DNA from: Buxus sempervirens | Lineage: Eukaryota; Streptophyta; Magnoliopsida; Buxales; Buxaceae | Assembly: GCA_947561395.2 (NCBI GenBank) | Contig: OX387190.1 | Coordinates: 28,080,858 to 28,144,857, forward strand | Direction of reading: 5' to 3' | DNA: 64,000 nucleotides | Shown: positions 1,427 through 46,005 of the stretch, piece after piece | Layout of the letters: each line of letters opens with the position of its first letter | Numbering within the stretch: the first letter of the stretch is position 1 | Translations under genes and position numbers: made by a program | The notes under the pieces: model-generated | The model's database searches: none | Told to the model about the DNA's origin: nothing | Seen by the model: the letters and a program-made list of their open reading frames with translations, nothing else

Positions 1427-1993
1427 TAGGGCTGGCAACGGGTCGAATACGGTACGGATCTGTCATGATCCGAATCCGAACCGAAAATAAAAATCCGATA
1501 TCCGAATTCGATCCGAAATCCGACGGATCTTTTATATGTGAATCCGAATTCGAAACCGAATTTATATAATGTATCCGAATTCGAAATTCGACCGAATAAA
1601 TAACCGAAATCCGAATTCGATCCGAATTAGATCCGATTTAAACTTAAAATTCAAAAGTTAAGTTTAACTATTAAAGCAAATTTTAATTATCAAAACTAAT
1701 GAGCCATATAAATATTAAAGCAAGATATGAATAAGGATAGTTCAACCATGGTTTATACAAAGTTTACCAATGATTTAATGAAAAGTATATGTTAATTTCG
1801 GTTCGGATCTTTTTCGGATCGGATATGGACAGATTCGGATTCGGATCCGAATTCGGTCGGATCCGAATTCGGTCGGATCCGAAATCCGATATCCGTATTC
1901 GAACCGCGGATCTATATTTTCGGATCGGATTCGGGATTTTCGGATCGGATTCGGGTCGGATTCGGATATATATCCGACCCATTGCCAGCCCTA
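1427..1993 (+). mobile_element. hAT-type non-autonomous element, copy A
   Basis: 567 bp. Starts TAGGGCTGGCAACGGGTCG and ends with the inverted complement (CCATTGCCAGCCCTA). An 8-bp target duplication, GTCAAAAC, flanks it at 1419-1426 and 1994-2001, which with the TAGGG end points to the hAT superfamily. The arms are filled with short CGGAT/ATCCG repeats, which is why spurious Arg-Ile-Ser-Asp-rich reading frames appear here. No transposase is encoded. The same family occurs inverted at 18748-19274. Confidence 0.85.
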
Positions 1994-3186
1994 GTCAAAA
2001 CCATTGCAATGGCGACTTTCACACTATTAATTACACTACAAAAGGCCCTTTATTGATTGGCACATGCCTTATTCGTTGTTTCTGCCTTTTTCTTTCAAGC
2101 CCCGATAATAGGTAGCCTTTTCCAATGCACTTTACAAAGAGGTCACATTGTCCCTCTTCTTTTTCACTTGATCTCAGGCCACTTTTGCTTTCTTTCTTTT
2201 CTTTCCTTTCCTTTTTTTAGCAGAATTTTTTCTGCTCTTTTTCTCTCTCTCTTTTTTTTTTTTTGTATATTTCTTTTTGATTCCTTTTTTCTTTTCTTTT
2301 TTTCTTTTTGGGCCTTGAAGATATTTTTCAATAGAGCTCTTGGGGGTTGATTTGTGAAAAACACTAATTGAGGCTTAAAAATTAGCTAAACACTCACTGT
2401 TGTGCATGAAATTCCGTGATAGCAACTATACATTGCATTACCCAGATTTGAATGGTCAAGAACATCACTATAGCCCCATGTGAACTACACTCCAACCATT
2501 CAGAATTAATGTAGACCATGAAACTCATTGTTCTATGTTTCAGTAAAGGAAATTGATAACTTTAGAATGAAAAGCAAGCTGAAACCCAGATAAATAATCT
2601 TAAGCATAGGACTAACTTGAATAATTTGCACACTTGAGGGAATGAAAACAAGGCATGAGGATATGCATGAGAGTTTATACCACGAGCTACCCCTAATACC
2701 CCCAACTAAGATCAAGCAATGCAATTAAAATTTGGAGGTTAAGGGCAAAAAAAAACATGGCAGTTATGAAGAGAGTAATAACAGATTTTTTTATGATGAT
2801 AGCAGAAAAAAAATAAAACAGTACTTCTTTTACCAAGAACATGCATTAGTCTTACCAATATGCATGAAAATTCGCCCAAATGAGCTGAACCCAAACTAAT
2901 CTAAACATGGGCTTCAAAGTTCAAAATTCACTCAAAATTGCTCAAATTCACTTAAGCTAGCTCAAAAACAAAGAAATCAGTGAAGATTTACTCAAAGTAG
3001 TGAAGTAGTATGAAAAAATTTAAATTCCCCACCCCCAACTAAAAATAAACATTGTCCTCAATGTTCGAAAGGTAAAGAACAAAAATAAACAATGTCTAAG
3101 TGAAAAGAGGATGTATATCACCTTTACTAGCTGAAACTTGCATGAAATGGATGAAAAATTTCAACCCTACCTTGAGAAGTGCATGG
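1994..3186. other. No gene seen; CT-rich and AT-rich spacer
   Basis: Contains a long pyrimidine-rich block (about 2180-2310) and, near 3015-3070 on the minus strand, a purine-rich tract followed by a short sequence like the 3' end of a gypsy-type internal region. I see no host gene. Confidence 0.5.
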
Positions 3187-5640: not shown

Positions 5641-8220
5641 AGCTTCTAGCGTGAATTAGGTTCACTACCCTCAATACCTGAAGGCATGTGGTGAACTTGA
5701 GTTCACTACCCCAAGAATTAAAATTTGTCATAGGCCTCTGGCTCTTTCAAGTGCCTATATTTTATTATAAAAATATCATATACTGTACTTGTACAATTCA
5801 CAGATGAAACTAGTTCCAAATTATCTAACTCAATTAAGATCAAAAGAAAGAACACAATTTCCTTAAAATCCCAAATCAAAACCAATTTTAGTAGAACATA
5901 CCCAAAAACCTTGTTAGATTTAATGTTAAGATAAATTCAGTAGAGATACTTTCTAAACACCTAAAATTTATTCATACAAAGATTAAATTTGATAAGAACA
6001 CGTTCAATAATTAAAATCTACTAAAAAATGTACAAAAACAACTTTTCTGTGTTGGGCGCTTGACCCTGTGCTTGAGCACAAGTGTTGAGCGATCAGAAAA
6101 TTTTCCATATTCGCACATTTTCGAAACCTCTCTTTTTCTGAATCTAAACTATATAACTTGTTTTATTCAATCTAAATCACTTAGAAAACATTAATAAGGA
6201 TTCAAGAATCAAAACCTAACAGTTTACAACCTAATTTACACAGTATAAAATTTTCTGACCCAAATCAAACATCTGAACTGCGAAAATCTCGTCTGAAACA
6301 GAACAAATAATTATTCTCTATTTAAAACCGAAATTCCTACACAATCTAAGAGTAGAAAGGTGCTACTTACAGATTCGACCTCTTCTCTTCTTCTTCCTTT
6401 GCTCTCCTTATCTTCTCCTTCTTTCTACGCGCGACTGGAATGTTTTGGTCTCCTCGGGTAATTTATAACTAAACTTAAACCAATTTAAACCGGTCCACTT
6501 AAATGAACCAACCCAAACCAAACCAAAACCAAAGGGTTTTTTTTTTTTTTTAAATTTGATTCAATGCATACACTCCCATCAAATTAAATTACTACCACTA
6601 AATCCTTATATCAATAACTTAACATTAGCATCCAATATCTTCAAACCGTCAGATTTCTACAAACCTTTGAAATTTGAGTCATATCAACCTTTTCTATTCT
6701 AATCAAGAGTTAAATTACTAAATTAATTTATTTAATTAATCTAATTAAATCACTTAACATCTATTTACTCTTAAATAAAAATACTTACAATTATAGGATC
6801 TTCCATTTAGAGTCCCAAAATAAATTCTCAAGAAAATTGAAAAATAATTTTTAATTTTTACAAATAGTCTTCTTATATTAAATAATAAAAAATAATAACC
6901 TACTTATCATAATTCAATGATAAATCTTCAAGAACGAAAGAAATATCGTTAAATAATTATAAGTGAAATTCCTAATAGTATATATAAGAGGAGCATGACT
7001 AAGAAAATTATTCAAATAATTATAAGTGAAAATGTTACCAATTTTCAAATATTAAATCAAATAATATATTTCTTTTAAATATCTATACAATTTTCATATA
7101 TTAATTTAAATACTATATTTATTTTCGTAATTATAACATTTTAAAAAGGGAAGAACATTAAATATATAAAAACTATGGGACTACATGCACTATGTGCATA
7201 TCAAATCACGTAGGGCCTACTCAGAAAAAGCTCCAGCAAAAGTCCAAATCGCATGCAGTTCAGTTACGCTAATGTAGCATAACAAATCGATAAAATAGGA
7301 AAAAACTGGGGATGATTTGGGCATATATTATCAGACTAGAATCTTGCCATTTCCCTTTTTATGGTAGTATAGATTAAGTTGCAAGTCTTTATATATTCCC
7401 AAAAAAAATTGATAAAATATGCTAATTTCTAATAGTAAGTAATAAATTTATAAAGTTTGTGTTTTAGTTACTTTTTATTCTTTTTATGAAAAACAAATAT
7501 TTTTTTTATAATAAAAATAAGATATTTCTAAAATTTTCATTTTTATCATTATATGTATATATCTTTATTTCAAAATTATTAAGTACTAGGTCCTTAAAAT
7601 AATTTTTAAAATGAAATTTAAACTTGAGTTGTATTGAGGAGCAAAAGAATCACAAAATATGAAATAATTCTCAACGGGCAATGCATGTTCACATTTACTA
7701 GTATCTATATATATAATCGATTGAAATATTGGAAAATGTATTTCCAATTTTGGGCATGATCCATATGACTTGAATTATGGTCCCAAATGATAGATGCAGT
7801 ATAAAATTTGAAAAGAATATATATATACTTTTTTTTTAAAAAGAAAATTGATTGAAATATTGGAAAATGAATCTTTAATTTTGGGTATGATACAAATATA
7901 TGATTTGATTTATGATGAAAACTATAGATGCACTATACATCATCATTGGTATTAAAGAAGAAAAATTACCTTTGGATACCTAGTTTAAAGTTTTTGGATA
8001 TCCCATCGCTCTCACATGCTTTAAAACTGAGTTAGCTGCTGATTCTAAACATAACCGTTGGTGTTAAATACACACACAATTTTGATCTGTTATTATTGTT
8101 GTTGCAATAAAAGCGAGCAATTGGTAAGAATGAACCATCACTTGATTCCTTCTATGGCCAAGGTAGATAGAATTAACCTTACATAGAGATCAAATTACGG
8201 ATCGAGCGCTAAAATAGCCG

Positions 8221-8411
8221 ACGCATCCTTTTTTGAGGTAAATGATGTTTTGATAACACATAATTTAATTGAATGTCTCACGGAGAAAAAATGAATATTT
8301 CTAACCTGTGGTGATTTGTCAACAGTAATTATTGGTAGAAGTTCTCAACTTTAAGCAGCGGATACGAAGATTCTATTCTGCGTTGATTTCACTCACACTG
8401 CCTATAAATAA
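8221..8411 (+). promoter_or_regulatory. Orphan VTL promoter, first unit of a 191-bp tandem duplication
   Basis: This block matches the proximal promoters of both VTL genes (24554-24722 and 45838-46013) and ends right after their TATA box (CTATAAATA, 8402-8410). Instead of the 5' leader it is followed at 8412 by a repeat of its own first 20 bases (8221-8240 equals 8412-8431). It is therefore the upstream unit of a 191-bp tandem duplication, and the downstream unit was then split by the Helitron insertion. The nearest downstream VTL start codon is 16 kb away, so its promoter activity is unlikely to serve that gene. Confidence 0.8.
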
Positions 8412-9056
8412 ACGCATCCTTTTTTGAGGTACTAGTTAAACCCCACGTGCTACGCACGTGGTGGGCCTTTGAATTAAAAAATGAAAATAAACAGCTTCTT
8501 AAACTTTTATAGTAAGGAAAAAAAATTTTAATTAACTTTCTAATGGTTTCTTTAAGTAAGAAACTTATTAAACATACTTTAAAAACAAAGTGCACGCTCA
8601 AATAACAAGGAACAATTATGCTAAATAAAGAAATACTAATGGAACAAAATATATGGGAATAAATATATTTAAATATAAGGTATTTAAAAGTAAAAATCCT
8701 TTGTAATAAGATCATAATATGCAAGAACTATGATGAGGACTTTTCCTTAGGCATCAACTTCATGTAGGTGCATCTTGTAGATATGTCCTTACAATTCAAA
8801 CCCATACCTATCCATGTAGATATCCAATAAAGACCAACAAATAGCCTGTAAGTCTAAACTATTTCTCTTGGATAAGGATATTGCGTACCCATCATCCTAC
8901 CATTATGAATGAATAGTAAAATAACAAAATAATAAAGGATAAATGGCTCTACAAAGTTAGATAAAATAATGGCATGTACCTGTGAACTTAAAAATAATCA
9001 AAACTGGCTAAAGGAAATAAGAAGCTTTTCCCAAAAAGTTGCATATAATACCTAAA

Positions 9057-9196
9057 TTATTGATTATTCTCTGCAAGGTATTTCATGGTCATGGCAATGG
9101 AAGCAACGCATTTCAGTTCTCTAATCTCCAAAACTGAGCCACGAGAAGGGGCAAAGTCCTGCATATTTGGAGCACCAACAACCACAGGGACAGCTC
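9057..9196 (-). pseudogene. Captured exon of alpha-1,3-fucosyltransferase
   Basis: The minus strand encodes GAVPVVVGAPNMQDFAPSRG followed by about 27 residues ending in KYLAENN. This matches the donor-binding core of plant core alpha-1,3-fucosyltransferases (FUT11/FUT12 family, GT10, Golgi enzymes that add alpha-1,3-fucose to the N-glycan core), which carry a VPVVVGAPNIEEFAPSPDS-like segment near residue 300. A splice acceptor (TTTTGTAG) precedes the exon at 9197. The frame meets TAA at 9057-9059 where the family continues, and no other FUT exon could be recognised nearby. It is a short captured fragment inside the Helitron and cannot make an enzyme. Confidence 0.75.
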
Positions 9197-9284
9197 CTAC
9201 AAAAGTTCGTTATCAACAGATACTAAAGACATATGTAAAGTCCTTGTATATTATAAAATTTAAGCATATATCAATTGTAGCAAC

Positions 9285-9800
9285 TTACAGAAACTTCTTA
9301 TAAGCAAATACTTTTTTTTTCCAGTTTTTAATGGTTACTATCTGGAAAAAAAAAAAAAGGGAAGACGAGACCAAAGAGGATGTTGTTGCTTCGCTTTTGA
9401 TGATTTGGAGGTTCCTACAACGTGAATGTCTGAATTGGCAATGTACTTTTAAGTAAGAGCAGGAACTATCCTCCAATCCTCCCATCTCTTTAACACTTGA
9501 CCAGCTCTCTTCTCCATGCGTAGCTGCTCCACTACATTCCCATAAGCTAATCAATATTAAATGACAGATACATATAATGGATCAAAATAAACTTAATTCA
9601 CTACCCAATCAGATATAATGTAATTCATTTATCAAACAAAAACTAAAGCTTAAATCAATACCAACAAAGAACCCTTTGTTTTAGCTCGAACTAAACTATC
9701 ACCTGATCCTTCGTGAGAAGTGCTTGCCAATCATTCGTCTTCGGTAGCTCATCAGCGTTACCAATCATGCCCTTCCATTTCCAAATAGCAGAGAACGAAT
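9285..9800 (-). pseudogene. Unidentified exon-like pieces
   Basis: Two stretches look like coding exons on the minus strand. One (about 9460-9548) follows an AG acceptor and reads AYGNVVEQLRMEKRAGQVL followed by KRWEDWRIVPAL. The other (about 9707-9800) reads WKWKGMIGNADELPKTNDW followed by QALLTKDQ and then a GT donor. I do not recognise either family. They lie between the fucosyltransferase fragment and the internal repeat and share the orientation of the other captured pieces, so they may be further captured exons. Confidence 0.35.
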
Positions 9801-10145
9801 TTGATCTTTGATAGAGAAATGCTATACAATTTAACATGAAGATATTGTGAACACAAATGACAATCTTGAAATATGAAAAATTTAGTTTCATGTTTTTTAA
9901 GTTAATGCATTATCTACAAGGTAGTAGACCAAACAACACCTATTGAATTATTTTGGAACTAAGAAATTTTGATAAAGAATTTCAAAACAAGCCTAAATCC
10001 CTTATTGACAATCTTATGTTTGTTCGGTAAGTTAGGGGATCAAACAAGTCCTTATTTGAGAGGAACCCTGAAATTCATTCTCAAGTTCCTGAGAATGAAT
10101 TGGTAGGCAGATATGGAAACAAAATAAGATAGAGAGTTACAGAGT

Positions 10146-10925
10146 TCTTGTTTTGAGTCTAGAGCCTCAAATTTCCTTCTGTTTTACACTCATGATAAGG
10201 TACACAACAAACCAGTTAAAGCACATATCACCTCACATGTAGATATTCATTACGCCTCAAGGATGCCTTTTTAGCCTTGTTTAGTTATTCCCACCAAAAT
10301 AAGAGCATTCAATGATTACCTCAAGTATAAAAAGAATAATAATGCAACCAAAAAGTTAAACATTCCCGAAAAAATCACTACACAATACAGTGAAGATGGT
10401 TTCCACAACTCCAAATTGAAGCAAACTTTTTTCCCGAAATTCATATTCCATCATAAACAATACAGCTCAATTTTATACACACGGCACCACAGACTTATCA
10501 CAAGTAGTAGGATTCATAGTATTGTTAATATAAATTAATCATGAAACCATGTTGAGCTTAGTTGCAGAAGGAAGGCTTAGCAATTATGTTATGTGGATAA
10601 ATATTTTTGTGTACCTTGCCAAAGGAATGAATAGAAATTAATCATTTAGGAAGAACAGTGTAGTATGTATATGGTACATAATGTTGAGAATACAATATGG
10701 CAATCAACACAACTGAACAATGGAAAAGGAAGTATAACAAATTTCAATAAACAAATGCAAAGATGGAAAAAGTAGTGATAGAAGAAAAAGGGGGAAGAGA
10801 GAGAATGTGATCAGCACCTATGGTAATCATCGTGGTCAAAGTCATAGCCAATGGCCTGCAAGTGCAAAAAATAGATGAAAACCCACAAATAATCTCATCA
10901 ATAACTTGTTTTTTCTTAATTTTTT
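10146..10925. repeat. Internal Helitron direct repeat, copy A
   Basis: About 778 bp that align almost without gaps with 20008-20785 in the same orientation. The repeat includes one exon of the HAD nucleotidase gene near its right end. Both copies are inside the Helitron, which suggests either an internal duplication or two captures of related loci. Confidence 0.85.
10818..10855 (-). pseudogene. HAD pyrimidine 5'-nucleotidase-like exon (second copy)
   Basis: A 38-nt exon encoding AIGYDFDHDDYH on the minus strand, bounded by TGCACTTGCAG and a GT donor. It is the same exon as 20679-20717 but with the family's expected length and phase, so here it remains in frame. None of the upstream exons of that gene accompany it; it is an isolated exon within repeat copy A. 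Confidence 0.65.
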
Positions 10926-11169
10926 TAATAGAAACAATATATATCCTTGAGATTACTAATTCTGCCTAACAATGCAAGCAATGTGATTGGTATTTCTCAA
11001 TAAAAGGGGACTTACCCGAAATGTTTCTTATCCGAAATGTGTTGTGTGTGGTGATCTTGTGATCTAAGGACTGAGAATCCCAGTCTAAATAGTATAGTTG
11101 TAGTCCAAGCAACGTCTATAGTTATGTAATCCATATTTTGCAGCAACAAATGTTCATCTTAGTCCTACC

Positions 11170-11470
11170 ACAACAAATTTGACATAAACTTCTTGAATCT
11201 GCTGGTTTCCGAGAATAAAATCTTTTATAGACCCACATAAATAGACAATATGGGTACCACACTCGATGTTCTCATCAATATTTATTGATCCTTCTGTCCC
11301 TGATTCCTGCACTTGAATTAGCTTGGAAAGAGGACGAGGCTCTCTATTAATTTCATTTTTTTAGGTCCTCCATGCGGATAATAATTTTCTTGATGCTTTT
11401 CCTTCTTATTTGTTGTGGAAGCCATATGCTCCCCCTTGAAACCATTCAAATCAACACTTTTTGTCTGGAC
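11170..11470 (-). pseudogene. Unidentified coding-like stretch
   Basis: On the minus strand, adjacent frames carry long protein-like runs such as SVDLNGFKGEHMASTTNKK, then INIDENIECGTHIVYLCGS and IQEVYVKFVV, with one frame change near 11345. Composition resembles a real protein more than translated spacer, but I cannot place the family. It may be another captured fragment in the Helitron. Confidence 0.3.
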
Positions 11471-12168
11471 TATGTGACTTTGTATGACCAATATATTTAA
11501 TAGGATAAAAAGGAGAAGAGAAAAGAAAAGAGGGCTAGGGGGTTATGAGAGTGTGTGTATCCAGGAACCCAATATCACCTATCTATTATTCTAGTTCTAG
11601 ATATGCACTAAAATTGCTTTTACCATAATGTAAACAACAGTATTTCTGGATCCTAACAATATCTTTAACCTAACTTAGGTCAACTTATTGAACAATCTAC
11701 ACCTAAACAAAGTCAGTGGTAGGCGAATATAAAGAAAGTAATAACAATAAAGTTACAGCAACAATGCTAAAGAGATTTTATTTCAACAAGAGGTTGGTCC
11801 ACATAAGATTTATTGTATCTTGAGCATCCAAATAATAAAAACATATAATAACAAGGTAACAATTTTTTTTCTTCGCTTTATATATATAAAACCTTCATAA
11901 TCGATAAAAGAGAAAAAAAGAAAACATATAATAACAAGGTAACTGAAGATAATTAAATTGATAAAAAATGAAATAATAATCTGCACCATCATCGCTGATA
12001 TTGTTGGCAAAAATGTGAGAAAAGGACAGGAAAGGAGATAACAAAAATTCTAGTAATGTGATTCGAGTCAGACCTCAGCAAGATGACATAACTCCAATCC
12101 AAATATAGGGACATCCAGCCAAGAAAAATACACCCTATTTATAAACCAAACCAACAATAATACTTTAC

Positions 12169-12663
12169 CCATTCATAATTTCATGAAATAAATTCGGCAA
12201 CAATAGACGTGTGCCTTGTCAGAAGCTCCTGCAATAATGTGCTATTAGCACCAGAATTCCAATATATAAACAAAGGCCATATCATACAAATCGCAAAATG
12301 GACATATCCACATTTGAGCATACTTCGCATTGAGAACCTACCTATGGTAATACAAAGGGAGAAATTCTATTGCATGAAAATAATATATAACTGAAGATAT
12401 TCAAACGTAAAGGAAGAACAAGTGCATTTTATTCCAAGATATAAACCTAAATAAGGCAAAAGCTAACAAGCAAGGGCAGGAAGCAAGTGGCTGTCTATAT
12501 GATTTAAAGAAAGGGGGAAGAAGGCACTTCAGAAAAATCACTCAGGAGTAATAATATTTAATGCCCCTTGACCTTAAAAGTTGCTGCAGCATCTGAAGCG
12601 ATATCAAAGTTTGGAAGCTGAATATAATCAAAGAACCTCATGTGCTCAGATTCGAAAACATAC
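12169..12663 (-). pseudogene. MO25: Captured MO25 (CAB39-like) gene fragment, two exons
   Basis: Exon 12573-12663 encodes [15 protein letters not shown] followed by [15 protein letters not shown], and exon 12169-12228 encodes ELLTRHTSIVAEFIS then NYEW. Together they match the armadillo-like MO25 scaffold that activates STE20/GCK-type kinases, whose family sequence runs [20 protein letters not shown]...ATFKELLTRHKSTVAEFL. Acceptors (TTTTTAG; ATTATTGCAG) and donors (AAG/GTCAAG; GG/GTAAAG) sit where expected and the intron is about 340 bp. The second exon contains a TGA where the family has lysine. The rest of the roughly 340-residue protein is missing, so this is a non-functional captured piece. 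Confidence 0.85.
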
Positions 12664-13469
12664 CTAAAAAAGACGGCAGAAAAATTAAAAGGATCACATA
12701 ATTCCAGCATAACAAAACCAAAAAAAAAATTGCAATATAAATATAAAAATCAGTAAATAAAGTTAAACAGACAACACAGCCAAAACAGCCTCCACTGTGC
12801 TTTATGGTTTTTCTGTTTGCAAGTGGGAACGTGATTCAGAGGCTTGAACTTCATGAGCACAGAAGACTGCGAAGACCAGAGAGAAAAATTTCCATAGCTG
12901 CAATAGCAAATTTCTCATGGATTTTAACCATCTCAAAGTCTGAGTTGGTGGTGTTACATCAAAACCTATCATTCAATTGAAGCCATAACACAGAGTACCA
13001 ATGATTTGGATAACTTTACATAATATTTGCGTTCCCTAACCACACTCCCATGAAAATGAAGATTGTCCTATTTGTACTATGCCTGACTCTAATACGACCA
13101 ACAACAGATAATATGAAAAAATATAATCTCCTATATAGAAGTATTCACCAAGTCACTAAGTGGAGCCAGAAGTGACTTAATACTATAGATTTTTTTATGG
13201 CACCAAGTGGATAGGATGACCACAAGTTAAAAAAATGAGAAATTCAAAAGAATTTAAGGATCGTGATCACATATCGCCTACTCCAAAAAAGGGATTAACT
13301 GCTGTCACATTGAGGAAACTATTGAAATCCATGAATATAATGATTACCAATCTACTGTGTAATAATAAGACTGAGAAGTTATTCACATACTAGAATGCAG
13401 CAATAGGTATTAGATAGAGATGCCTGACTATTTACACTGGTAAATCCTGTTATATTATTCTCGTTAAAG

Positions 13470-13950
13470 TTGTCAGCTCCAGCCTTTCTGAAAAAGCTTC
13501 GGTTTCAATTTCCTCTTCCAGTGTTTCTCCTTCTCCCTCCTTTGGAAAAAGCATTCTCCCATCAAGCCAAATCGGATAGGAATTAGTGGACAGATGGTGC
13601 TCCTCCAACAAAGGGTAGCTACATTCCGATAATCAAAGGTGAATTAAATCAAAGAAACCAATGCCTAAATATCTACACAAGGAAAAACATTTCATGATGC
13701 CTGTCATGGCATTATTGTTTTGAATCTGCCAAGGCTTTCCCCATGTTAGACAAAACCCTTTCCCATTACAATTTATTATCAAGTCAACACATTTCGCATC
13801 CTCAAGCTCAAGGCAGACATAATCTTCTATGAGACAATTCTCTGATAAAAAAATCCAAATGCTTGACAATCTCTGATAAAAAGAGATCCAAATGCTTTGC
13901 TTGCCCCTTTTTCCGCCAGTTTTCAACACATCCAAGGTCAATCTCAAATT
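13470..13950 (-). pseudogene. Unidentified coding-like stretch
   Basis: The minus strand reads without stops through segments such as YPLLEEHHLSTNSYPIWLDG and LFPKEGEGETLEEEIETEAF (about 13470-13620); a separate open frame of 104 residues lies at 13633-13947. I do not recognise the family. Nothing recognisable lies between this region and the MO25 pieces. Confidence 0.3.
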
Positions 13951-15017
13951 CCAGGAACTGAGTAATATAATTGAGGCTTTATTGAATGACCAAATACAGA
14001 GAAAGCTACACTTAGAAATTGTAAATTGCTGTCAAAATACCTTCTCAATTACGGAGTATTATGCATCACCCTACGAATACAATATCAAGTTCTAGAGATC
14101 TCTTACAACCACAAGCTCTCAAAACCTATGAAAATTCGTCTGTATATGAAGCTTCTAGATCGTTTTAGTGTCATTAAAGGCTGTTAGAAAATGCCTAGGC
14201 AGCCACCTATGCCACTATGGTTTTTTGAGAATCCAGCTTACCTTGGAGGTTAGCAAATTTGGGTATCTAGGCAACCACCTTTCCTACAGCATTTTGAATT
14301 TCCTTTTCACCTCAGTTGCTAAATTAGCACCCTACAGAATCTAAAGGAATTCAGTCCACTACATAAGAAGAAACAATATTGCCACAAATACTCTATTGTT
14401 CTGTTCTGAATTTTATCAGACCCTAAGTCCATATAGCACAGCCTTGAGTTAATGCACAGGTTTCATGTACAAAATGGAATGAAAAAAAGGCTTGACTGAA
14501 ATAGTGCACCTTGACAATTGAGAACCCAAAAAAGGGACCAAGAACAAAAGCAAACAGTTGGCCATGCATAACAATCAAGGCCCTCATTTTGTATCTAGAC
14601 CACCAAAAAATGCGATAAATGAATCTTTTATGTCAGAAATCTTTACTGTCCCACTTTTATCAAATTCATCTTCATTAGACAACACATAAAAGAGAATTCA
14701 AATGTAGATCTCAGAATACAATTCATAATAAAAAGCAATTTATCATTAGGAAAAAATTAATCTAGTTTTTATAATGGGATAATTTGAAATCAAATGAGTT
14801 GAGACAAATGTAAAGCTCCATACAGTACAGTGCTAATTTAGATGAGGTCTGGGATTTCCATGTCCCAGTCTCTACAAGCTCCTGGATTCTCACTTGTTAG
14901 TAATTAAGGGAGGAAGATGTGATATCTATTTACATAATATTCAAGGAGCTTCCACCGGAACTAATCTTACAAGAGCAATATGCACTGTGACTACTGGAGC
15001 TCAACGTTAGGATACTG

Positions 15018-16899
15018 CTAACTAAAAAACAGAGATGCAATTAGCATGGTTGATAAAGGAACGGATAGATTGTCATCTACTACCTGTGTAATTGGAAGAG
15101 ACTCCACTAGTGTTGCTATCATGGCCACTAGAGCTACCCTTTCTGCTGTCCATACCCAATCCAAATGGAAGTATCCCAAAGCAGAAAAGTAGTAAACAAG
15201 GTTTTAAGTATCGGCCGATACCGAGAAGTATCGGCCGATACGTATCGGTATCGCCATAAGGCGATACAACTCGGTATCGGCCGGTATCGGCCGGTATCGG
15301 ATTTGGTATCGGACGTATCAGTTGATACAACTCGGTATCGGGCTAGACCGATACCAAACCCGATACCGAGTTTTTAAACCTTGGTAGTAAAGCATCCTAT
15401 AACAAGGAAAAAAAAATTCATGTAAGCAAACCAAATAAGGTCAAAATCCACATCAAGCAATTAACTATCTGCACTTCGTTCGATTAGATGAGAAAAGACT
15501 TTGCTAGATATGTTCAATTAATGACATGATGAAACCCTTCTAATAGATTCCCATCTTCAAAGCAATAAAACCTTCATTTGGAAGAGATGTTACCAGGATT
15601 GATCATGGTGCTCAACATGAATGTTACTGATTGATGGAACACAAGACAAATCTAAGAAGACAGGGTGGATCTTTAGATTGTTAATTCGAAGTCTGTAAGA
15701 TATGTTAAACTTTTGAGGCTGGGTGGCTGTTTGCGGGAAACAGAAACTAGCTTTTATGCTCATGGTATTTTTATGCTTCTCTATCCCCCTCCTCTCTCTT
15801 ATTTTTATTATTTTTTGTGCCGAACATATGGGAGGGGGAAAAAAGGGTAAAACTCTTGAGGGCATCAGTCATTCCAAGTATGGAGGTAGTAGGCTTGCTA
15901 GTTGAGCCTTCTTTCAATGTGTTGCCTTGAATTTGAAGGAATTGAAAATATATTAAATGGGAAGGCTTCTCATCTAAATTCGTGAGTGCTTTACCAATCT
16001 AAAAAAAAACTAAATTCAAGAGCGTTATCCATGACGATTCATACATCAATCACCACACAATCTAATTCATTGTTTATTTTGTCAATCTTGTCGCAAATCA
16101 TCATTAAAAATAAAATAAAATAACTATCAGGAAAACAAAAGTATCACTGGTTCAAACCTACCCAATGGAAATCAAGAAACCCAATAGAAACATGAAGATG
16201 CTTCCAACCCAACTCTTTTGTTGGTTATAAGGAATTTTTATAATTCCATACCTTCTTCCCATTATATCTGCAATACCTATAAAAAGAAAGAAGGAGATGA
16301 CTGGAAGGTAAGGAAACCAAATTCGGAGGAGCAATAGGAGTGTTACCATCCCCGCCACACATCATAGCCAATGAGATCACCCCAACTGGAGACTCACGCC
16401 AGAAGATGATAGCACACAAAATCAACACCATAACATAACAGAGAGGACCTTTAAGCAGTTCCCTGAAAAGATGAACAGATTTAAGCTAAACCACATGATT
16501 TCGTGAGTGTGAGAAAGAAATGAAGAGAGTGAGGGAGAGAGAAAAAGGAACAACTTCCTATGGTGTTGGAGCAATTACTCTGGGTTTCCCTCTCTTGTAA
16601 CAGATTTCACAAGACCTTCATCATTAACCAATGAGAGGCCATGAACGACAAGCCTTAAGCAATTTACAAGAGGAACTAATGCAGCAAAGTAGCGGGCCTG
16701 CTTTGTCGTACTATTCTAGGTAAAGATCAACAAATTAATTAAGGAAAATATATACATATATCTCTGTGTGTGAGTGTGTGTGTGTGAAAGAGGCATATTT
16801 GTAAACAATAACAGAGTATTCTAAGCTATGAAGAAGGAATACCTGAAAAGTGGCCAAGAGCACAAGAAAAGCAACCCAGATAATATATGGACCAATTTT
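15018..16899 (-). pseudogene. VTE5: Captured phytol kinase (VTE5-like) gene, 3' two thirds
   Basis: Five exons on the minus strand match chloroplast phytol kinase, the membrane enzyme that recycles phytol for tocopherol synthesis. They are 16843-16899 (KLVHILSGLLFLCSWPLF), 16579-16715 (ARYFAALVPLVNCLRLVV...KSVTREGNP), 16347-16462 (ELLKGPLCYVM...SLAMMCGGDG), 16162-16276 (IADIMGRRYGIIKIPYN...), and 15018-15396 (MLYY...FSALGYFHLDWVW...VESLPITQVVDDNLSVPL to the stop). GT and AG borders and phases fit for the last four exons; the first junction appears out of phase by a base. The CGGDGIADIMGR core is intact. The N-terminal transit-peptide exons were not found. A 187-bp MITE interrupts the last exon and brings an in-frame TGA. 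The rest of the reading frame is well preserved, so capture was probably recent or the copy was long under constraint. Confidence 0.88.
15197..15383. mobile_element. Short foldback MITE in the VTE5 exon
   Basis: 187 bp, starting CAAGGTTTTAAGTATCGG and ending with the near-inverse (CCGAGTTTTTAAACCTTG), with internal TATCGG/CCGATA repeats. An 8-bp target duplication, GTAGTAAA, lies at 15189-15196 and 15384-15391. An 8-bp duplication suggests hAT, though the terminus is not a typical one. It inserted into an exon of the captured VTE5 gene, so it is younger than the exon structure it breaks. Confidence 0.85.
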
Positions 16900-18747
16900 C
16901 TGCTCACATTCTGCTTTAAACAGGGAAAAAATGGGGCAGAAATGTCAAAACAAAATAATCAAATTATGTGGATGTATTAAGCTGAATCAGAGTAGATGTT
17001 CCCTTTTACATAAACTTAACTTTCAAATGCTGAAATACTCAAAAAAATAAAAATGTTTAATTTCTGGTCTTAAATAGATAATAAAAAAAAAACCCTTTTT
17101 TTTCCCTTTTTTAAATAACTTTACTAGTGTAAGTTCAAAAAGTCAAATTTTAAAAGAGATGTATCAAAATAGATGTATTGCTACCAATCTCATTGCTAAT
17201 GCTGAAATTGCAGCTTCTAATCGAGAAAACTTTCAACAGTTTCTAATCACCAAACCCTTTCACACAAGAACACAATTTCAAAGAGAAGGCACCTTAAAGT
17301 GCTCTACTGATGTCATATCAACATCTAGTTGCAACTTTTATAGAAATCCTAACACAATTATATCTATATCTTAACAAGTGGTTGCATTGTGTAGTTTGCT
17401 CTACTACACTAATCAAGATGTAGAATTTCTGTAGAATAGCTCAAAATTTTGTTTCGGATGTTACTTTGGATATTAGTTACTCAAAAGGTTGCAAGCACAC
17501 AATACTCACAATCCTTCATAACAAACACAGAGGATTACTAATAGGTGATGTATATGAATGAACTAATGGAGTCTCATTATCCATGTCTTCAATCTGGTAA
17601 AATGACAAGTGACAACCAAGAGAATGAGAAATCAACAAGGACAGAGGAACCTGCCAAACCCCACTCTCCATGTCTTCAATCTAGTAAAACCACCACCAAG
17701 AGAATGAGAAACCAAAATGGACAGAAGAAGCTGCCAAACCCAACTTTATTTCGACTCTGAGGAGCATGTTGTGAGTGTTGTTTTTGGGTTGGGGTGGGTG
17801 GTGCGGGTGATGTTGAGTTTGGCTGAGGCAGCATATTATTTAAAAAATAGTGCAATTCTCCCGAGATGAGCTTAACGGGAACATAAACCTCAAGCAGGAA
17901 CTGAAAACTTGAAATACAATACAAGTCTTGAAAGTGGGTAAATTCATCCTATGGGCTTCTGGAATTTGAAGCAGAGATATCAGAGACATTGCCATGGGAA
18001 TAACAGCTTGTGGCACCTTTAGTCTGTTCAAGAGATAACGTGGATTCTTAATAATATTGCAACTATCAGAAATACTAAGACTTGTATCAATTAGAACTTC
18101 CAATAAGCTATATCTCCATTGTTTTTTTTCCCCTTTGGAAAAGAGCAAACAACTCATTGACTAATCAGTTTCAATCAAGTTGTGATATATCTGACAACTA
18201 TGACAATCAATTCATGAAATTGCATCAGAATAAAATTTTCAGAACTGTTACTATTTATCAATTAGTTCAGATATACAATCAAATCTCATTATAGAGCACA
18301 CGGTTCAAATAAACCAATAGGACCTAAGCCCTATTATAAGATCCACTGAAAGGGAAGGGTCGGTCATTTTGAGCAAAGAAACTATTTTTCGGAAATTTTC
18401 AACATAACTTCTTCAATCTCCTAGATTTATTTAATAAGGAAATTTCCCTGGAATTAGGACACTCTCTATAATTAAACTAATCACATTTTTAACAGAATCA
18501 TAACAACTATTGAATCCTAAACAACCTACCCTACCAAAAATTTAAAAGCAGCAAAGAAAAGGAGATTTCTAAACTCACTCTTCAAATCAGCATTGTCCTC
18601 AAGGCTATGGATCACCATCAAATTCTTAACCCTCCAAGAAAAGCTATTAGACTTTGCATTGGTGCCCACATGGAAACTTTTCCTCACAGTTACAACGAAG
18701 ATCTTTTTCTCACAGTTCATCCATACCTCACAAGTATAAGTTTCTAG
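16900..18747. other. Helitron interior, no gene recognised
   Basis: AT-rich sequence that should cover the 5' part of the captured VTE5 locus, but I could not find its N-terminal exons. A 64-residue minus-strand frame at 18526-18720 has no family I recognise. Confidence 0.4.
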
Positions 18748-19274
18748 TAGGGCTGGAAATGGGTCGGATATATATCCGAATGCGACCTGAATCCGATCCG
18801 AAATCTCGAATTCGGATATGAGATATAGATCCGTGGTTCAAATACGGATATCAGATCCGACCGAATTCGAATCTGTCCATATTCGATCCAAGGACCAAAT
18901 AGGATCCGAACCGAAATCAACATATACTTTTCATTAAACCATTGATAAACTTTGTATAAACCATAGTTGAACCATCCTTACTCATGCCTTGCTTTAATAT
19001 TTACATGGCTCATTAGTTTTGATAGTTAAAATTTGCTTTAATATTTAAACTTGACTTTTGAGTTTTAAGTTCAAATCGGATCTAATTCGGATTTCGGTTA
19101 TTTATTCGGTTGAATTTCAAATTCGGATACAGTATATAAATTCGGTTTCGAATTCGGATTCACGTATAAAAGATTCGTCGGATTTTGAATCGAGTTCGGA
19201 TATCGGATTTTTATTTTCGATTCGGATTCGGATCATGGTAGATCCATACCGTATTTGACCCATTGCCAGCCCTA
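18748..19274 (-). mobile_element. hAT-type non-autonomous element, copy B
   Basis: 527 bp with TAGGGCTGGAAATGGG at one end and CCATTGCCAGCCCTA at the other, flanked by the 8-bp duplication GTTTCTAG (18740-18747 and 19275-19282). Its body is the reverse complement of the copy at 1427-1993, including the AT-rich centre. It is nested inside the giant Helitron. Confidence 0.85.
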
Positions 19275-20007
19275 GTTTCTAGTTGATATTAAGCACTATT
19301 TTTCTCCTAAAATCAATATATTTAAAATTTTCTTCATTTTTTATTATGACAATATAAAGCACTAATATATGTTTATTTTCAAACTACAAACACATAAATA
19401 GGGCCTTAATTAATATCCATACCCAAAAAAAATTAAAAGTAATAAGAAACACTTTAAATGCCTTCTAAAATAATAATTACAAATGTAAAAAAAAAATATG
19501 TATGAATTGTGTTGAATAATTTTAATTTTAATTTTTTTACAATATAAAATTCTCTAATATCTACAAATCAATTTCAATAAAGTATAATAATTAAAAATCT
19601 AAAAAAAAATCATGAATAAATTGTGTTGAGTAATTTTATTTTAAATTTTTTTACAATATAATAAATTCTTTAATATCTACGAATCAATTTCAATAAAGTA
19701 TAATAATTAAAAATCTACAAAAAAATCATGTATAAATTGTGTTGAATAATTTTATTTTAAATTTTTTTACAATATAATAAATTCTTTAATATCTACAAAT
19801 CAATTTAGGATAAAGTAATTGAATATAATACTTTTAAAGTTCTCAAAATATCCTACATTTAGAATTCTAATTCAAAAACCATTATTCTGTGCAAGATCCT
19901 AAACCACATGAAAAAATCTTGAAGAAAAGGAACAAAGGGAAACGTAATATAATAAAACTACTTTTTATTTTTAATAAAACAATTTATAAAATTCATCATT
20001 TTTTATA

Positions 20008-20785
20008 ATCTTGTTTTGAGTTAGAGCCTCAAATTTCCTCCTGTTTTACACAAATGATAAGGTACATAACAAACCAGTTAAACCACCTATCACCTCACAT
20101 GTAGGTATTCATTAAGACTCAAGGATGCCTTTTTAGCCTTGTTTAGATATTCCCAGCAAAAGAAGAGCATTCAATGATTGCCTCAAGCATAAAAAGAATA
20201 ATAATACAACCAAAAAGTTAAACATTCCCAAAAAAATCACTACAAAGTACAGTGAACATGGTTTCCAAAACTCCAGATTGAAGCAAACTTTTTTCCCCAA
20301 ATTCATATTCCATCATAAACAGTACACCTCACTTTTATACACACAGCGCCAAAGAGTTATCACAAGTAGTAGGATTCATAGTATTGTTAATATAAATTAA
20401 TCATGAAACCATGTTCAGCTTAGTTGAAGAAGGAAGACTTAGCAATTAAGTTACGTGGAGAAATATTTTTGTGTGCCTTAACAAATGAATAAATAGAAAT
20501 TAATCATTTAGGGAGAAGTGTGCAGTATGTATATGGTACATAACATGAGAATACAATATGGCAATCAACACAACTGAATAATGGAAAAGGAAGTATAACA
20601 CATTTCCATAAACAAATGCAAAGATGAAAAAAGTAGTGGTAGAAGAAAAAGGGGGAAGAGAGAGAAGGTGATCAACACCTATGGCAATCATCATAGTCAA
20701 AAGTCATAGCCAATGGCCTGCGAGTGCAAAAAATAGATGAAAACCCAGAAAAAATCTCATCAATAACTTGTTTTTTCTTAATTTT
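20008..20785. repeat. Internal Helitron direct repeat, copy B
   Basis: Partner of 10146-10925. In this copy the flanking sequence on the right continues into the upstream exons of the HAD nucleotidase gene, so this is probably the parent copy. Confidence 0.85.
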
Positions 20786-21235
20786 TTTTTTTAAAAACCC
20801 CCCATTAATAAGATTAGAGCATCAAATACGTACCCTCAGACAAGCCATGGCTCTCGCATAATTCTTGTACAATAGATTACACATATCAGAGATTTTGCTT
20901 TCATGAATGCCAAGCTTCTAAATAATATAATCTAGATAGAGACCCAAAAGAATAACCATGATTAGGAAATATTTAATAATTTGTAAGTGAACCTAAGCAT
21001 GATCATCTACATGTACCTCCAATATTCTTGCGGCATTCTGCAGCCAGACCAGAACTCAGGGAATAAATAGTATCATCTGGTTCTGGAAGTTATAAAAAAT
21101 ATATAAATAATTGTTGAAATCGTCCTTACAAATAGTCCAGTTGAAGAACAAAATGTTCTGTGAATGAGGACTTACCAAAGAGAAGGCACTCATATTTAGG
21201 TTGCTTTGCTTGGTGATATCAGTGCTCGTATTCCA
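20679..21235 (-). pseudogene. Captured HAD pyrimidine 5'-nucleotidase-like gene, 5' part
   Basis: Four exons on the minus strand: 21176-21235 (MEYEH, then YHQAKQPKYECLLF), 21017-21082 (EPDDTIYSLSSGLAAECRKN), 20834-20917 (KLGIHESKISDMCNLLYKNY then ARAMACLR), 20679-20717 (an AIGYDFD-type exon). They match the plant SDT1-like haloacid-dehalogenase hydrolases, which dephosphorylate pyrimidine nucleotides and start MEYEN...DCLLFDLDDTLYPLSSGLA. Introns have GT/AG borders. Damage: TGA replaces an arginine codon in exon 1, the catalytic DLDDT motif reads EPDDT (nucleophile Asp to Glu), the exon for GDYMVE is not recognisable and exon 4 has one extra base. The C-terminal half is absent. It is a clear pseudogene fragment. 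Confidence 0.88.
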
Positions 21236-21259
21236 TTTTGATCTGAGAAGAATAGAAGA

Positions 21260-24200
21260 CAATGAAATGAAGTGTACTTAAGCACAATAAACACACAACT
21301 AAACATGCGACTACAAGGTTTCTATTAGTAAAAATGTACTAATAAAGTATCATCTAGAGAAGGTTTCTATTAGTAAATCTTTACTAATAGAAACCAACAC
21401 ATGAGAATACAATATCTACTAAAAATGCCACCACAGGGTTTCTATTAGTAATATAATACAAGGAAAATCACCACAAGGGCATATCAACATTTAAAAAAGG
21501 AAAAAAGCAGTCATGCTTAAATGCAAGAGCCATAAGGGCAACCGGAAATAAAAAAATGGACTTCTTTTGATTTCTCACTTCTGAAATATTAAAAAAAAAA
21601 AAGGAGTTTAGAAGAACATAAAGCCATCATAATGGGCCAGCAATACCTTCTTATCTACGCTAATATAAAATTTGGATTCCATTAGGGGTGTTCCAAAGGT
21701 CATGAGGTATGTTATCATAAAAGATTCAAATGAAAAGAGGGAAAAAAAAAATTTCTGGGTCATGGATCCTATATGGATATATGTGAACTTAAACCCACTA
21801 TAGGAAAAACTTTGGATGAAACTCTGCCGAATAATTTCCATGAATACTCTTGTAGGTGATGCCATCATCCATCTTGGATGACATAAGGCTCCTGCCAGGA
21901 GCCCTCTTAGATATGCAATGCCTTAAACATCGCATATCAATTCTTTGAATGCTTTTCAGAGTGTTGACTCTTATGAGTCCATCTAGACCGATTTCACTTA
22001 CCTAAATATTAACTCGAAGGAACAACCAAATTTTTCAAGACGGAATCCTAGGTTAGTTCATTTACACTATCTTCTCCCATCAGGTTGGAAGCAAGGCTTA
22101 CATTTTTGTTTTTTATTTCAGGTACCAACCCCCCAAATCTGAAATGTTATAGCAAAAATCAACTGATACATCGAGTGTTAGATCTAACCATGAATTGATG
22201 TTATCAATGATGCATGGACTAATACTACTGCCAAAAGAAGTTCAAGAAAATATGGTCCAGTAAAAGAATATGGGAAAATAATTTATCTGATTGATATCAA
22301 ATGCCTAATTGCAGATATTGATTCCGTAGATCAACAGTACCAACCATATTAACATTTAGGTAATATTCAAGCTATGCTGATGGGTCAAAGAGTTATAAAC
22401 CATCATGCCCGGGAAAACATTGGAAATCAAGTTTCAAACACAAGTAAGATGTGTGGTCTGAGATTTGGCAGCTCAGTATGATTCTCCAATTTAATAGTGT
22501 CTCAATGGACACCTGTTAGATTACTGAGATATTCAATTTATATTATTTTATTTTAAATTCGAATCTTCAAAACTAATTAGACTTGAGACTCCAACAAAAC
22601 CTTCCTTATAAATTGAGAGCCTTGTCGTAACAAGCATTGGTGGAAGCCTAAATAGTGTACATCCCTGAATAATTTATTCATAAAAGATATAATAGACACA
22701 AATGAAGAACAAAAATCTCCATAGGTAAACAACACACCTGATATTGAGTTCTGGTGTTTCTAGCATTCATATAATGTTCTAACTGTTGATTCACAGGCTA
22801 TCCCATCAGACCAGAGATGTATAAATAGTAACGAAGAAAAAGAAGAGAAAAATAATATAGGCCACTTTTGGTTAGACAATTAGTGAAACTGTCCAATTGA
22901 AAAATGAAATGGAAATAAAACAAAGTGGTCAATGTTAAACGTATACAATTCATCAACATTCTCAAATGAAGAATCCAACCTGTTAAGATAAAAATTATAA
23001 ACATATGAGTGAAAACCTCAACCTAAAACAGTAATAACATGAGCATGTGAAAGTTGAAACTTCCTCAGGAAAGGAAACAGTAAAATCAACAATGCAACTC
23101 GTTCAATATGCATTTTTACTCACAACGGAGTTGTTTTTACTTCTACTTTTAAAGCTTTGCAATGCAAAATAGTAGAACCTATGAGTAAGAGATGATGAAC
23201 AGAAATAGTCTTAATGCAAAGAAATGAATCAGTAAAATATATCTTGAAAATCATTTCTCTTCTTGGAAGGTAAAGCTTCAATTTAAGCTTCCGCTACACA
23301 TTTATTGTTCACACCAATTCGTTGAGTGTAATAACTGCACACGGGAAATTAACCAACAAATTGGGAGGAAAAAAGAATAAGAAGGAATTGGAAACTACAG
23401 AGTGAAAACAAATAGGTTTCCAGTACGAAATTGTAGAAATTGTGCATCCAATGCACAATGGAGACCATGACAGCAAATCAAAGCATAACAAAGAAAGGAA
23501 AAAAAAATTTGGAACTATACCTTTTATCGGCCCAAAAAAACAAATCTGAAACTGGATATCATGTTCTTCGATCTTTGTTCGTCGCTGATGTACGCAAGAA
23601 TTTGGGTGTGATCGGAAGCCATCACCATCCCTAGCATTAAGAGAGAACCCTAAATCCGCCTCATGCACAGAGGCTGACCTGACGATTCACAGAAAAACCT
23701 TGTAGGGTAGGAGCTTTGAGGAAAATCAGCAACTTGGTGTACATGGATAAAAATGAGGGCGGCATTTGAGTAGAAGAGAGTGATAATACCGTACATTTAA
23801 AAGGCAGACGAAACCGCTGGCTTTTGCTCCCTTTTGGATTGTTGTTTCATTGTTCTCGATTTGTGGTTACTCATACCCAAATCTCAGGAGAACCTTTCAA
23901 ATTCAAAGGCAAAAGGAGGTAGGAGAATCATGTTCCCTATTTTGAAACGAAACAGAGAGAAACCTTACCAGTTGAAGGCAGAAGGGGAAGAGAGCTCGTA
24001 GAAAAAGTAAAACCCTTACCAGTTGGAAAAATAGTCAGTAAACATAAAAAGACCTCGGAGAAACCTAACCAAAACCCTTACCAGTTGAAGGCAGAAGGGG
24101 AAGAGAGATGAGAATCAGTAGTGTTTCTTCTTTCAAACCAAACAGAAAGCAGGGGAAAAGAATCGGAGAGTTCTATAGAAGCTTGCACAGCAAGCCAAGG

Positions 24201-24553
24201 TAATGAAACGCCTGATTCCAATCTCCTCACAAAAGATGGGATTGCTTGCTACTACTACCTCTGCCAATGCCGATGCCCTCTCCAATGGTCACAGCTTGCT
24301 TCCTGCAGATCGCCGCCAACTGGCGAACAAAATCCTTTTCTGTAACAATGGGCGAACCCTAGAAACAAATCCTAGAACCCTAGAAGCAACGCCCAATGGG
24401 CGAAGGAGAGGGGTGTTGTGTGATAACTCGGGAAAAGAGAACTGGAAGGGTATTGCTAATTCCGTGAATACATGGGGAGAAAGGGCAATTTGGTCAGTTC
24501 GATAAGTCGGGTGAAAACCAGAAAACCTTCCCTTTTAAGTACAGGTTTGCAGA
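21260..24553 (-). other. Helitron 5' third, origin unclear
   Basis: No family recognised. Stretches such as MDDGITYKSIHGNYSAEFHP (about 21790-21850, minus) and an open frame at 23309-23668 (minus) look partly coding. The segment 23880-24120 holds three near-copies of a short block ending in ACCCTTACCAGTTG or similar, and 24120-24450 resembles the 5' leader or transit-peptide region of some plant gene on the minus strand. Confidence 0.35.
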
Positions 24554-24713
24554 AATGATGTTTTGATAACACATAATTTAATTGAATGCCTCACAGAGAA
24601 AAAACGAATATTTCTAACTTGCAGTGATTTGACAACAGTAATTACTGGTAAAAGTTCTCAGCTTTAAGCAGCGGATACGAAGATTCTATTCGGCGTTGAT
24701 TTCACTCACACTG

Positions 24714-24722
24714 CCTATAAAT
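24714..24722 (+). promoter_or_regulatory. TATA box of VTL copy 1
   Basis: CTATAAATA about 75 bp before the start codon. The same box occurs at 46006-46014 (copy 2) and 8402-8410 (orphan unit). Only about 160 bp of native promoter remain upstream before the Helitron 5' end. Confidence 0.7.
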
Positions 24723-24793
24723 AGCAACGGAGAAACACCTTCTTCCTTGTATTTTTTTCTCTCTCTCTCTGCTTCTTCTTCTTCTACTCTTTC

Positions 24794-25441
24794 ATGGCAA
24801 TCCACGAGGCTCATGACCAACCATCGCTCGCCAGCTCCTCCAAACCGGCAATTTTCCCTGATAACAAGGAATTTGATTATTCTGGAAGGTCCCAATGGCT
24901 TCGAGCTGCAGTGCTTGGAGCCAACGACGGACTGGTCACGATAGCATCGTTGATGATGGGTGTTGGAGCTGTCAAGCGAGACACCAAGGTCATGATCCTT
25001 ACTGGGTTCGCGGGGTTGGTTGCCGGGGCTGGCAGCATGGCCATAGGAGAGTTAGTGTCTGTGTACTCACAGTATGACATAGAGGTGGCTCAAATGAAAA
25101 GAGATGAGAGGAGCGATGGAGGTTGGAGCTCGGAGAAAAGGGAGAGGGAGAGGAAGCGCTTGCCATCACCGATGAAGGCTGCAGTGTCGTCGGCGGTTGC
25201 ATTTGCAAGTGGTGCAGCTGTGCCGCTGCTGAGCGCCTCATTTATAAGGGATTATAAGGTGAGGGTGGGAGTGCTGGTGGGAGCATCTAGCTTGGCCTTG
25301 TTGGTGTTTGGAGGGGTAGGAGCAATGTTGGGGAAGTCTCCTGTGGTGAAGTCTTCTGCTAGGGTTTTGATTGGAGGATTGCTGGCGATGGGCATAACCT
25401 TTGGCTTGACTAAGCTGATTGGGTCGAGTAGCAGACTGTAA
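24794..25441 (+). CDS. VTL: Vacuolar iron transporter homolog (VTL), copy 1
   Basis: Intronless, 215 residues, member of the CCC1/VIT1 superfamily in the short plant nodulin-21-like branch, which moves Fe2+ into the vacuole (family knowledge). Visible features: hydrophilic N-terminus, five membrane segments at about 38-60, 67-91, 128-150, 157-178 and 190-210, the WLRAAVLGANDGLV signature at 35-48, and a short basic loop at 101-122 where VIT1 proteins have a larger metal-binding domain. Compared with copy 2 it lacks 12 residues in the N-terminal tail and departs from family consensus in conserved spots (VTIASLMM for VSTASLMM; GAGSMAIGEL for GACSMAIGEF). The frame is fully open. The start was chosen by alignment with copy 2. 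Its distal promoter was displaced 16 kb by the Helitron, so expression may have changed. Confidence 0.93.
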   Translation: MAIHEAHDQPSLASSSKPAIFPDNKEFDYSGRSQWLRAAVLGANDGLVTIASLMMGVGAVKRDTKVMILTGFAGLVAGAGSMAIGELVSVYSQYDIEVAQMKRDERSDGGWSSEKRERERKRLPSPMKAAVSSAVAFASGAAVPLLSASFIRDYKVRVGVLVGASSLALLVFGGVGAMLGKSPVVKSSARVLIGGLLAMGITFGLTKLIGSSSRL

Positions 25442-45817: not shown

Positions 45818-46005
45818 CGACGCATCCTTTTTTAGGTAAATGATGTTTTGATAACACATATAATTTAATTGAATGTCTCACAGAGAAAAAACGAATATTT
45901 CTAACCTGTGGTGATTTTACAACAATAATTATTGGTAGAAGTTCTCAGCTTTAAGCAGCGGATACAAATATTCTATTCTGTGTTGATTTCACTCACACTG
46001 CCTAT

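Follow-up and report, generated by a model that had tools for sequence, protein, structure and literature searches.

A 64,000-nucleotide window of the Buxus sempervirens genome (C12:28080858-28144857; genome size 676.5 Mb) carries a Helitron-type insertion, 16,122 bp long in its present form, on the minus strand at window positions 8432 to 24553. The insertion is a non-autonomous Helitron with a TC start, a 3′ hairpin and a CTAG end followed by T, and it carries fragments of other DNA. Its newest capture, a patch of 5,449 bp, was probably acquired in place, after insertion, by repair of a break. This reading was obtained by comparing the window copy with a second copy at the same site and with an independent insertion on C6.

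Both termini were read at the junctions. On the minus strand, the 5′ junction reads ...AACATCATT/TCTGCAAACCTGTACTTAAAAGGG, with TC at 24553, and the 3′ junction reads ...CCACGTGCGTAGCACGTGGGGTTTAACTAG/TACCTC. The 3′ hairpin has a stem of 8 bp and a loop of 3 nt, and 11 nt separate it from the element end, the usual distance in Helitrons being about 10 to 12 nt. Its DNA fold gave a z of -3.57, and none of 200 shuffles was equally stable. The empty target, GAGGTA^AATGATG, was found intact at 8220-8258 (one match at three or fewer mismatches, with none expected from 100 shuffles), and a second intact target, one base shorter, was found at 45819-45856 in a paralogous promoter. Comparison with these two empty sites revealed no target site duplication, only a 1-bp ambiguity (T) at the junction, and the TC/CTAG placement is the canonical choice. 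Thus, the original prediction, made from the letters of the window alone, had placed the TC end and the hairpin-CTAG end correctly and had rightly pointed to two paralogous sequences with the uninterrupted target. The insertion sits in the promoter of a VIT1-family gene, a plant iron-transporter family. The 171-bp promoter copies at 8240-8410 and 24553-24723 lie in tandem and are 94% identical; therefore, the promoter duplication probably predates the Helitron insertion.

A second copy, hereafter the sister copy, was found at C12:27970216-27989296, about 119 kb from the window copy, with identical target bases at both junctions. Its 3′ flank was 97% identical to that of the window copy over 2.2 kb (the whole fetched length) and its 5′ flank 94% identical over 8.6 kb, and the two elements differed by 171 substitutions in 10,559 aligned columns (1.6%). 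Because the junctions, the 3′ flank and the element all match, a single insertion that was later duplicated is a more economical account than two insertions at an identical base pair, and we infer that the two copies would be duplicates of one insertion. A 4,739-bp Helitron from another family is nested in the sister copy at an A^T site; without it, the sister copy is 14,313 bp long, which suggests that the original element measured 14.3 kb at insertion. About 3.7 kb of the sister copy is absent from the window copy, where the scar GGATTA (11127-11132) stands in its place, and about 3.1 kb of this sequence is also present in the C9 and C21 members of the family; it was probably deleted from the window copy after the split. 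The description of the Helitron as large at 16.1 kb consequently holds for the present length and not for the transposed one. Neither is such a size unusual, as six end-pairs of the family besides those on C12 (on C11, C22, C8 and C15 and two on C1) lie 13 to 16 kb apart and maize Helitrons reach 20,874 bp (PMC3288121).

The patch (14560-20008), which makes up about a third of the present element, is absent from both the sister and the C6 copies. Where these two read without interruption AACAAGAAATTTGCGCTCTTATTAACTGTTTGC, the window copy reads AACAAGA, the patch and then AACTGTTTGC. The patch replaces 16 bp of target and has no target duplication, a combination of ectopic sequence and deletion as in filler DNA. 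Microhomology amounted to 1 bp at each outer join, with none clear at the inner join, and no terminal motif was seen on reading the joins. Two likely sources were found. In window 18650-20010, one part matched C19 (99%) and the other C1 (95%), with 40 of 1973 candidates scored. Searched alone, the C19 part matched C19:5636729-5637440 at 99%, the next best match being 92% over 401 bp (40 of 157 candidates scored). Window 14570-18700 matched C1:61417397-61421336 at 98% almost throughout, interrupted by a 187-bp repeat, and this was the one other place matching it almost throughout among 40 of 325 candidates scored. Overall, the C1 source comprises two blocks at 98% and a third at 95%, about 4.5 kb in total. 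At the inner join, the C19 part ends at 19295, clear C1 sequence starts at about C1:61421919, and GCTT stands in between; the C1 locus reads GCTTGCATAATATC at this position, and GCTT may be C1 sequence with a 4-bp loss. A 17-bp microhomology between C19 and C1, taken from overlapping match ends, was discarded once the source edges were read.

The 187-bp repeat within the patch is a miniature inverted-repeat transposable element (MITE), presumably of hAT type, flanked by an 8-bp duplication. The C1 source has the octamer TTTACTAC once and no MITE; the MITE landed after the patch formed, and without it and its duplication the patch measures about 5.25 kb. A PDB sequence search with window 14560-18740 returned no match in any of the three minus-strand frames. 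The genome has many matches to a dispersed repeat, about 530 bp long, that lies at 18740-19278 within the C1-derived part and again, inverted, at window 1423-2001.

The C6 copy ends at C6:32220278 and 32285199 in unrelated flanks at an A^T site, and its two ends agree with those of the window copy at 97% identity, one over 1.68 kb and the other over 0.97 kb. It contains modules A, B and C of the window copy (Table 1) in the same order at 97-99%, spread across 65 kb with further intervening sequence, and it lacks the patch. Because this independent insertion holds modules A to C without the patch, the composite, as far as its sequence indicates, moved as a unit, and the patch appears new in the window copy, probably acquired after the split from the sister copy.

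As for the composite itself, module A was also matched at C15, C3, C8 and C10, and the right part of the element was 94-96% identical to the C9 and C21 members. A 780-bp family segment occurs in both parts of the window copy (10146-10926 and 20009-20788), and the C11 member has it once; a fusion of two family lineages with other DNA between them would give this pattern. The two 780-bp copies were also considered as long terminal repeats of a nested retrotransposon and rejected, as they are family sequence and no TG/CA edges or target duplication were seen. Module C has its left edge (window 13135) where a dispersed repeat about 310 bp long also has an edge; the matches of this repeat on C10, C11, C21, C12 and C19 begin at the same base. 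The nested Helitron of the sister copy (L041, L042), with a GTGCATCGCAC hairpin and CTAG, sits at the junction of modules B and C, and the window copy is its empty site.

In the history we favor, a composite of about 14.3 kb, with one lineage on the left, modules B and C in the middle and the other lineage on the right, would have inserted into the promoter of the VIT1-family gene, presumably mobilized by rolling circle with Rep/helicase from relatives, the insertion itself being directly seen. The region would then have duplicated to give the sister copy about 119 kb away. After the split, the window copy would have gained, at a single internal position and in exchange for 16 bp, about 5.25 kb (714 bp C19-like and about 4.5 kb C1-like), most plausibly when a double-strand break was repaired from ectopic templates along the filler-DNA route. 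The MITE would have entered the patch later and brought it to 5,449 bp, and about 3.7 kb was probably lost elsewhere in the window copy. The order of events and the likely sources are read from comparison of the copies. Since the patch left the ends untouched, the patched element could be mobile as a 16.1-kb unit.

Several observations weigh against this history. The microhomology of 0-1 bp at the joins is below the 2- to 13-bp junctions described for the insect Helitron Hel1A (PMC6544945). The C19 source is less certain than the C1 source, because the C19 stretch is part of an AT-rich dispersed repeat; both sources were read at their edges and at the MITE site, their identities being search output, and the evidence comes from one assembly of one individual of one species. 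In addition, divergence within the C12 pair is uneven, at 1.6% in the element, 2.6% in the 3′ flank and 6% in the 5′ flank; the 167 bp of 5′ flank adjoining the insertion are only 80% identical, with a 21-bp gap, and in the 5′ flank of the sister copy (L043) a promoter unit of about 60 bp is present in additional tandem copies. Simple duplication fails to explain this unevenness, and gene conversion or unequal exchange among the C12 tandem paralogs may have been involved. The excess divergence of the 5′ flanks would suit a capture during transposition, with the window and sister copies being separate insertions or one of them having been rewritten from another copy by conversion. Stepwise capture with transposition is also the published reading for maize Helitrons (PMC3288121), and whole modules differ among members of the Buxus family. 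However, the same junction bases at both ends, the 97% identity of the 3′ flank over 2.2 kb and the element divergence of 1.6% make this alternative improbable.

The remaining alternatives concern the patch itself. An ordinary nested transposon would be no surprise in such an element, given the 4,739-bp Helitron at an A^T site in the sister copy, but the 5.4-kb stretch has no target duplication, a 16-bp target deletion and two different sources, its C1-like query is almost fully matched at one other place among 40 of 325 candidates scored, and its joins bear no terminal motif; we consider this explanation very improbable. That the patch is old and was precisely deleted from both the sister and the C6 copies is scarcely credible: copies do lose internal DNA, as the window copy itself probably lost about 3.7 kb, but the sister and C6 copies have the same 16 bp, and two deletions leaving identical 16 bp would be needed. 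Because all data come from a single assembly, a misjoining of the C1 and C19 stretches into the element was weighed as well. The stretches are 95-99% and not 100% identical to their sources, and the patch contains a MITE, with an 8-bp duplication of its own, that the C1 locus lacks. Both points speak against a chimeric assembly and leave an artifact with next to no likelihood.

A genome search with both ends, as the original prediction had suggested, revealed a Helitron family, and the interiors of 12 copies, including that of the window, were compared. Querying with 141 bp of the 3′ end returned 40 matches (40 of 110 candidates scored), and querying with 191 bp of the 5′ end returned 49 (40 of 73 candidates scored); many of the latter start exactly at 24553, and the 5′ end was 97% identical to the C6 copy over 1.7 kb. 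Patterns of the commonest end forms matched 27 five-prime and 47 three-prime places genome-wide, against 0 for each reversed control; the window copy, with one indel at each end, falls outside these counts, and a single duplicated C9 region accounts for 8 of the 27 and 7 of the 47. End-pairs in the same orientation delimit members about 4 to 65 kb long. Hence, neither an absence of other loci with these ends nor an origin of the two ends from different elements, the outcomes named as refuting the Helitron, was observed, as the ends recur and are often paired.

The termini were consistent across the family. TC starts 18 of 20 five-prime loci, that is, all those with a readable terminus, L024 and L035 showing none, and CTAG followed by T was present at 16 of 17 three-prime loci inspected (window site included), the exception being the C9 group. 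The base flanking the 5′ end at the 12 readable family loci was A at 8, T at 3 (the window site, C21 and C1:14.35 Mb) and G at 1; in this count, the C9 copies and the two C12 copies were each entered once, and L024, L035 and the internal 5′ ends of five 4.3-kb copies were excluded. The reported T^T target is accordingly true of the window copy and a minority state in the family, and T^T as a family trait is ruled out. The family has the A^T preference; the window copy does not.

In C9:28.46-30.80 Mb, eight end-pairs of an 11-kb member lie within 2.4 Mb (L006, L008-L013, L015, L026-L032, L034). The 5′ flank is identical in all eight pairs, and the three 3′ sides read share one flank and all break off behind the first hairpin arm, so that this group looks like the product of segmental duplication rather than transposition. 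Five copies of a 4.3-kb class (L052-L056; C1:67465244, C3:60609170, C11:33716971, C12:29278108 and C12:40002145) are 98-99.7% identical at different A^T sites; their 5′ end, TCTCTACTACTTAAAAAGC, is new and lies about 0.3 kb farther out than the older one, TCTACAAAC, and pattern positions suggest two further members on C22. This class represents a 5′-end exchange followed by recent amplification, and an assembly accident as the origin of the new end is ruled out, as five copies at different sites carry it with A^T. The family 5′ end at C22:28574654-28574684 (L038) comes immediately after a CTAG, which makes the 3′ junction of another Helitron a possible insertion site for this member.

Six-frame Pfam scans (E up to 0.1) detected neither Rep nor helicase within the element, in agreement with what the letters had suggested. 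Their only matches, a weak one of MO25 type and a marginal one to a glycosyltransferase, fell below the Pfam cut-off. The MO25-like exon matches (E=0.00013 and 0.032) are consecutive and in correct order, and their places also match in pairs at C8, C14 and C4. Elsewhere in the window, the sole Rfam match above the gathering score was a single 5S rRNA match at 50369-50479 (67 bits).

Candidate autonomous partners sharing the Helitron 3′ end were identified by their sequence. One stop-free open frame with matches to both Rep (PF14214) and helicase (PF05970) was found at each of C1:54.01 and C19:13.35 Mb (1107 and 1123 aa, respectively), and a family-type 3′ end with the same hairpin, 81-82% identical to the last 130 bp of the window element, lies about 9.7 kb downstream; the 5′ ends of these loci were not located. 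The equal spacing suggests that the two loci are one kind of element. At C6:48765216-48777103 and C4:31374027-31383581, Rep and helicase lie between related ends with A before the 5′ end, each helicase match containing one stop codon. In the C6 element, 51 bp are shared with the window 3′ end (88% identity) and 52 bp with two other members (98%). The 5′ end of both elements (TCTCTACTACTTAAAAAG) differs from that of the window copy. Because the 4.3-kb class carries a TCTCTACTACTTAAAAAG-type end about 0.3 kb outside a window-type end, the family exchanges 5′ ends.

Table 1. Features of the Helitron insertion and its surroundings in the window.
Feature	Position	Strand	Basis
Non-autonomous Helitron, whole present insertion (16,122 bp)	8432..24553	-	Two empty sites; both ends recurring genome-wide
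5′ terminus (TCTGCAAACCTGTACTTAAAAGGG...), first 100 bp common across family	24454..24553	-	83-87% to other members over ~100 bp
Module A, common to C11 member (93%), C12 sister (98%) and C6 copy (97%)	20009..24318	-	Genome comparison
Patch part 1, 714 bp, like C19:5636729-5637440 (99%)	19295..20008	-	Absent from sister and C6 copies
Patch part 2, like C1:61417387 to ~61421919 (95-98%), plus MITE	14560..19294	-	Absent from sister and C6 copies
187-bp MITE, ends CAAGGTTT.../...AAACCTTG, 8-bp duplication TTTACTAC	15197..15383	.	C1 source without MITE
Module B, common to C12 sister, C6 copy and C9:44584526	13134..14559	-	Genome comparison
Module C, two consecutive weak MO25-like exon matches (12573-12671, 12166-12240)	11133..13140	-	Profile search
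GGATTA scar, probable ~3.7-kb deletion	11127..11132	-	Comparison with sister, C9 and C21 members
3′ module, common to C12 sister, C9, C21 and partly C11 members	8432..11126	-	Genome comparison
3′ terminus: hairpin 8443-8461, 11-nt spacer ending CTAG (8432-8435), then T	8432..8461	-	Family form agrees
Intact target in tandem promoter copy, site 8240^8241	8220..8258	+	Pattern match
Intact target in paralogous promoter, one base shorter	45819..45856	+	Sequence comparison
VIT1-family gene downstream of insertion (215 aa)	24794..25441	+	PF01988, E=6.6e-38

The Buxus element resembles the maize helA/helB Helitrons, which are described as starting with a TC-type 5′ end, ending in a hairpin and CTAG, and carrying several captured fragments; some members have more than one terminus, and others, putatively autonomous, have Rep and helicase (PMC3288121). 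It differs in the timing of capture, which in maize is read as stepwise with transposition, whereas here the sister copy and an independent insertion place the latest capture after insertion. In the Spodoptera Hel1A elements, internal fragments were likewise traced to separate loci; those pieces, however, measure 67-100 bp, have 2- to 13-bp end junctions and sit in elements that were later amplified (PMC6544945), whereas the Buxus patch of about 5.25 kb has 0-1 bp of microhomology and occurs in one copy only. Filler from two sources with a deletion at the break was reported for maize p2/p1, there as 50 bp from nearby (PMC2686159) and here as kilobases matching two other chromosomes, inside a transposon. 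The rice Mothra elements are also non-autonomous, with TC, CTAG and a hairpin, and are thought to use the Rep/helicase of a terminus-sharing family; their termini are different, and no comparable patch was seen in the excerpt of that report (PMC4683698).

Fragment capture by Helitrons has been described as unsettled, end bypass and filler DNA both having been proposed (PMC6544945), and filler DNA was favored for a fungal element (PMC4289320). In grasses, gene-carrying fragments serve as filler through strand-annealing repair (PMC3445842, citing Wicker 2010). Kilobase patching as such is therefore not new, and filler-DNA capture in Helitrons is already a known idea; less usual is the dating of a kilobase capture after insertion by means of a sister copy at the same site together with an outgroup. 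In the open-license literature, judged by titles and the openings of abstracts (10 of 198 records in one of the searches), we found no same-site demonstration of Helitron capture.

A further-reaching and rather doubtful idea is that Helitrons attract captures without moving: Rep would nick the element in place in an abortive start, and the resulting breaks would be mended with kilobase stretches of other chromosomes. If this were true, fragment capture would be largely in-place repair, and later transposition would merely spread the result. The Buxus locus offers one insertion in two versions at one site, an outgroup insertion and both likely sources still in the genome. One large capture can thereby be dated after insertion and separated from movement, and the present distance between the ends of a Helitron need not equal the length that was transposed.

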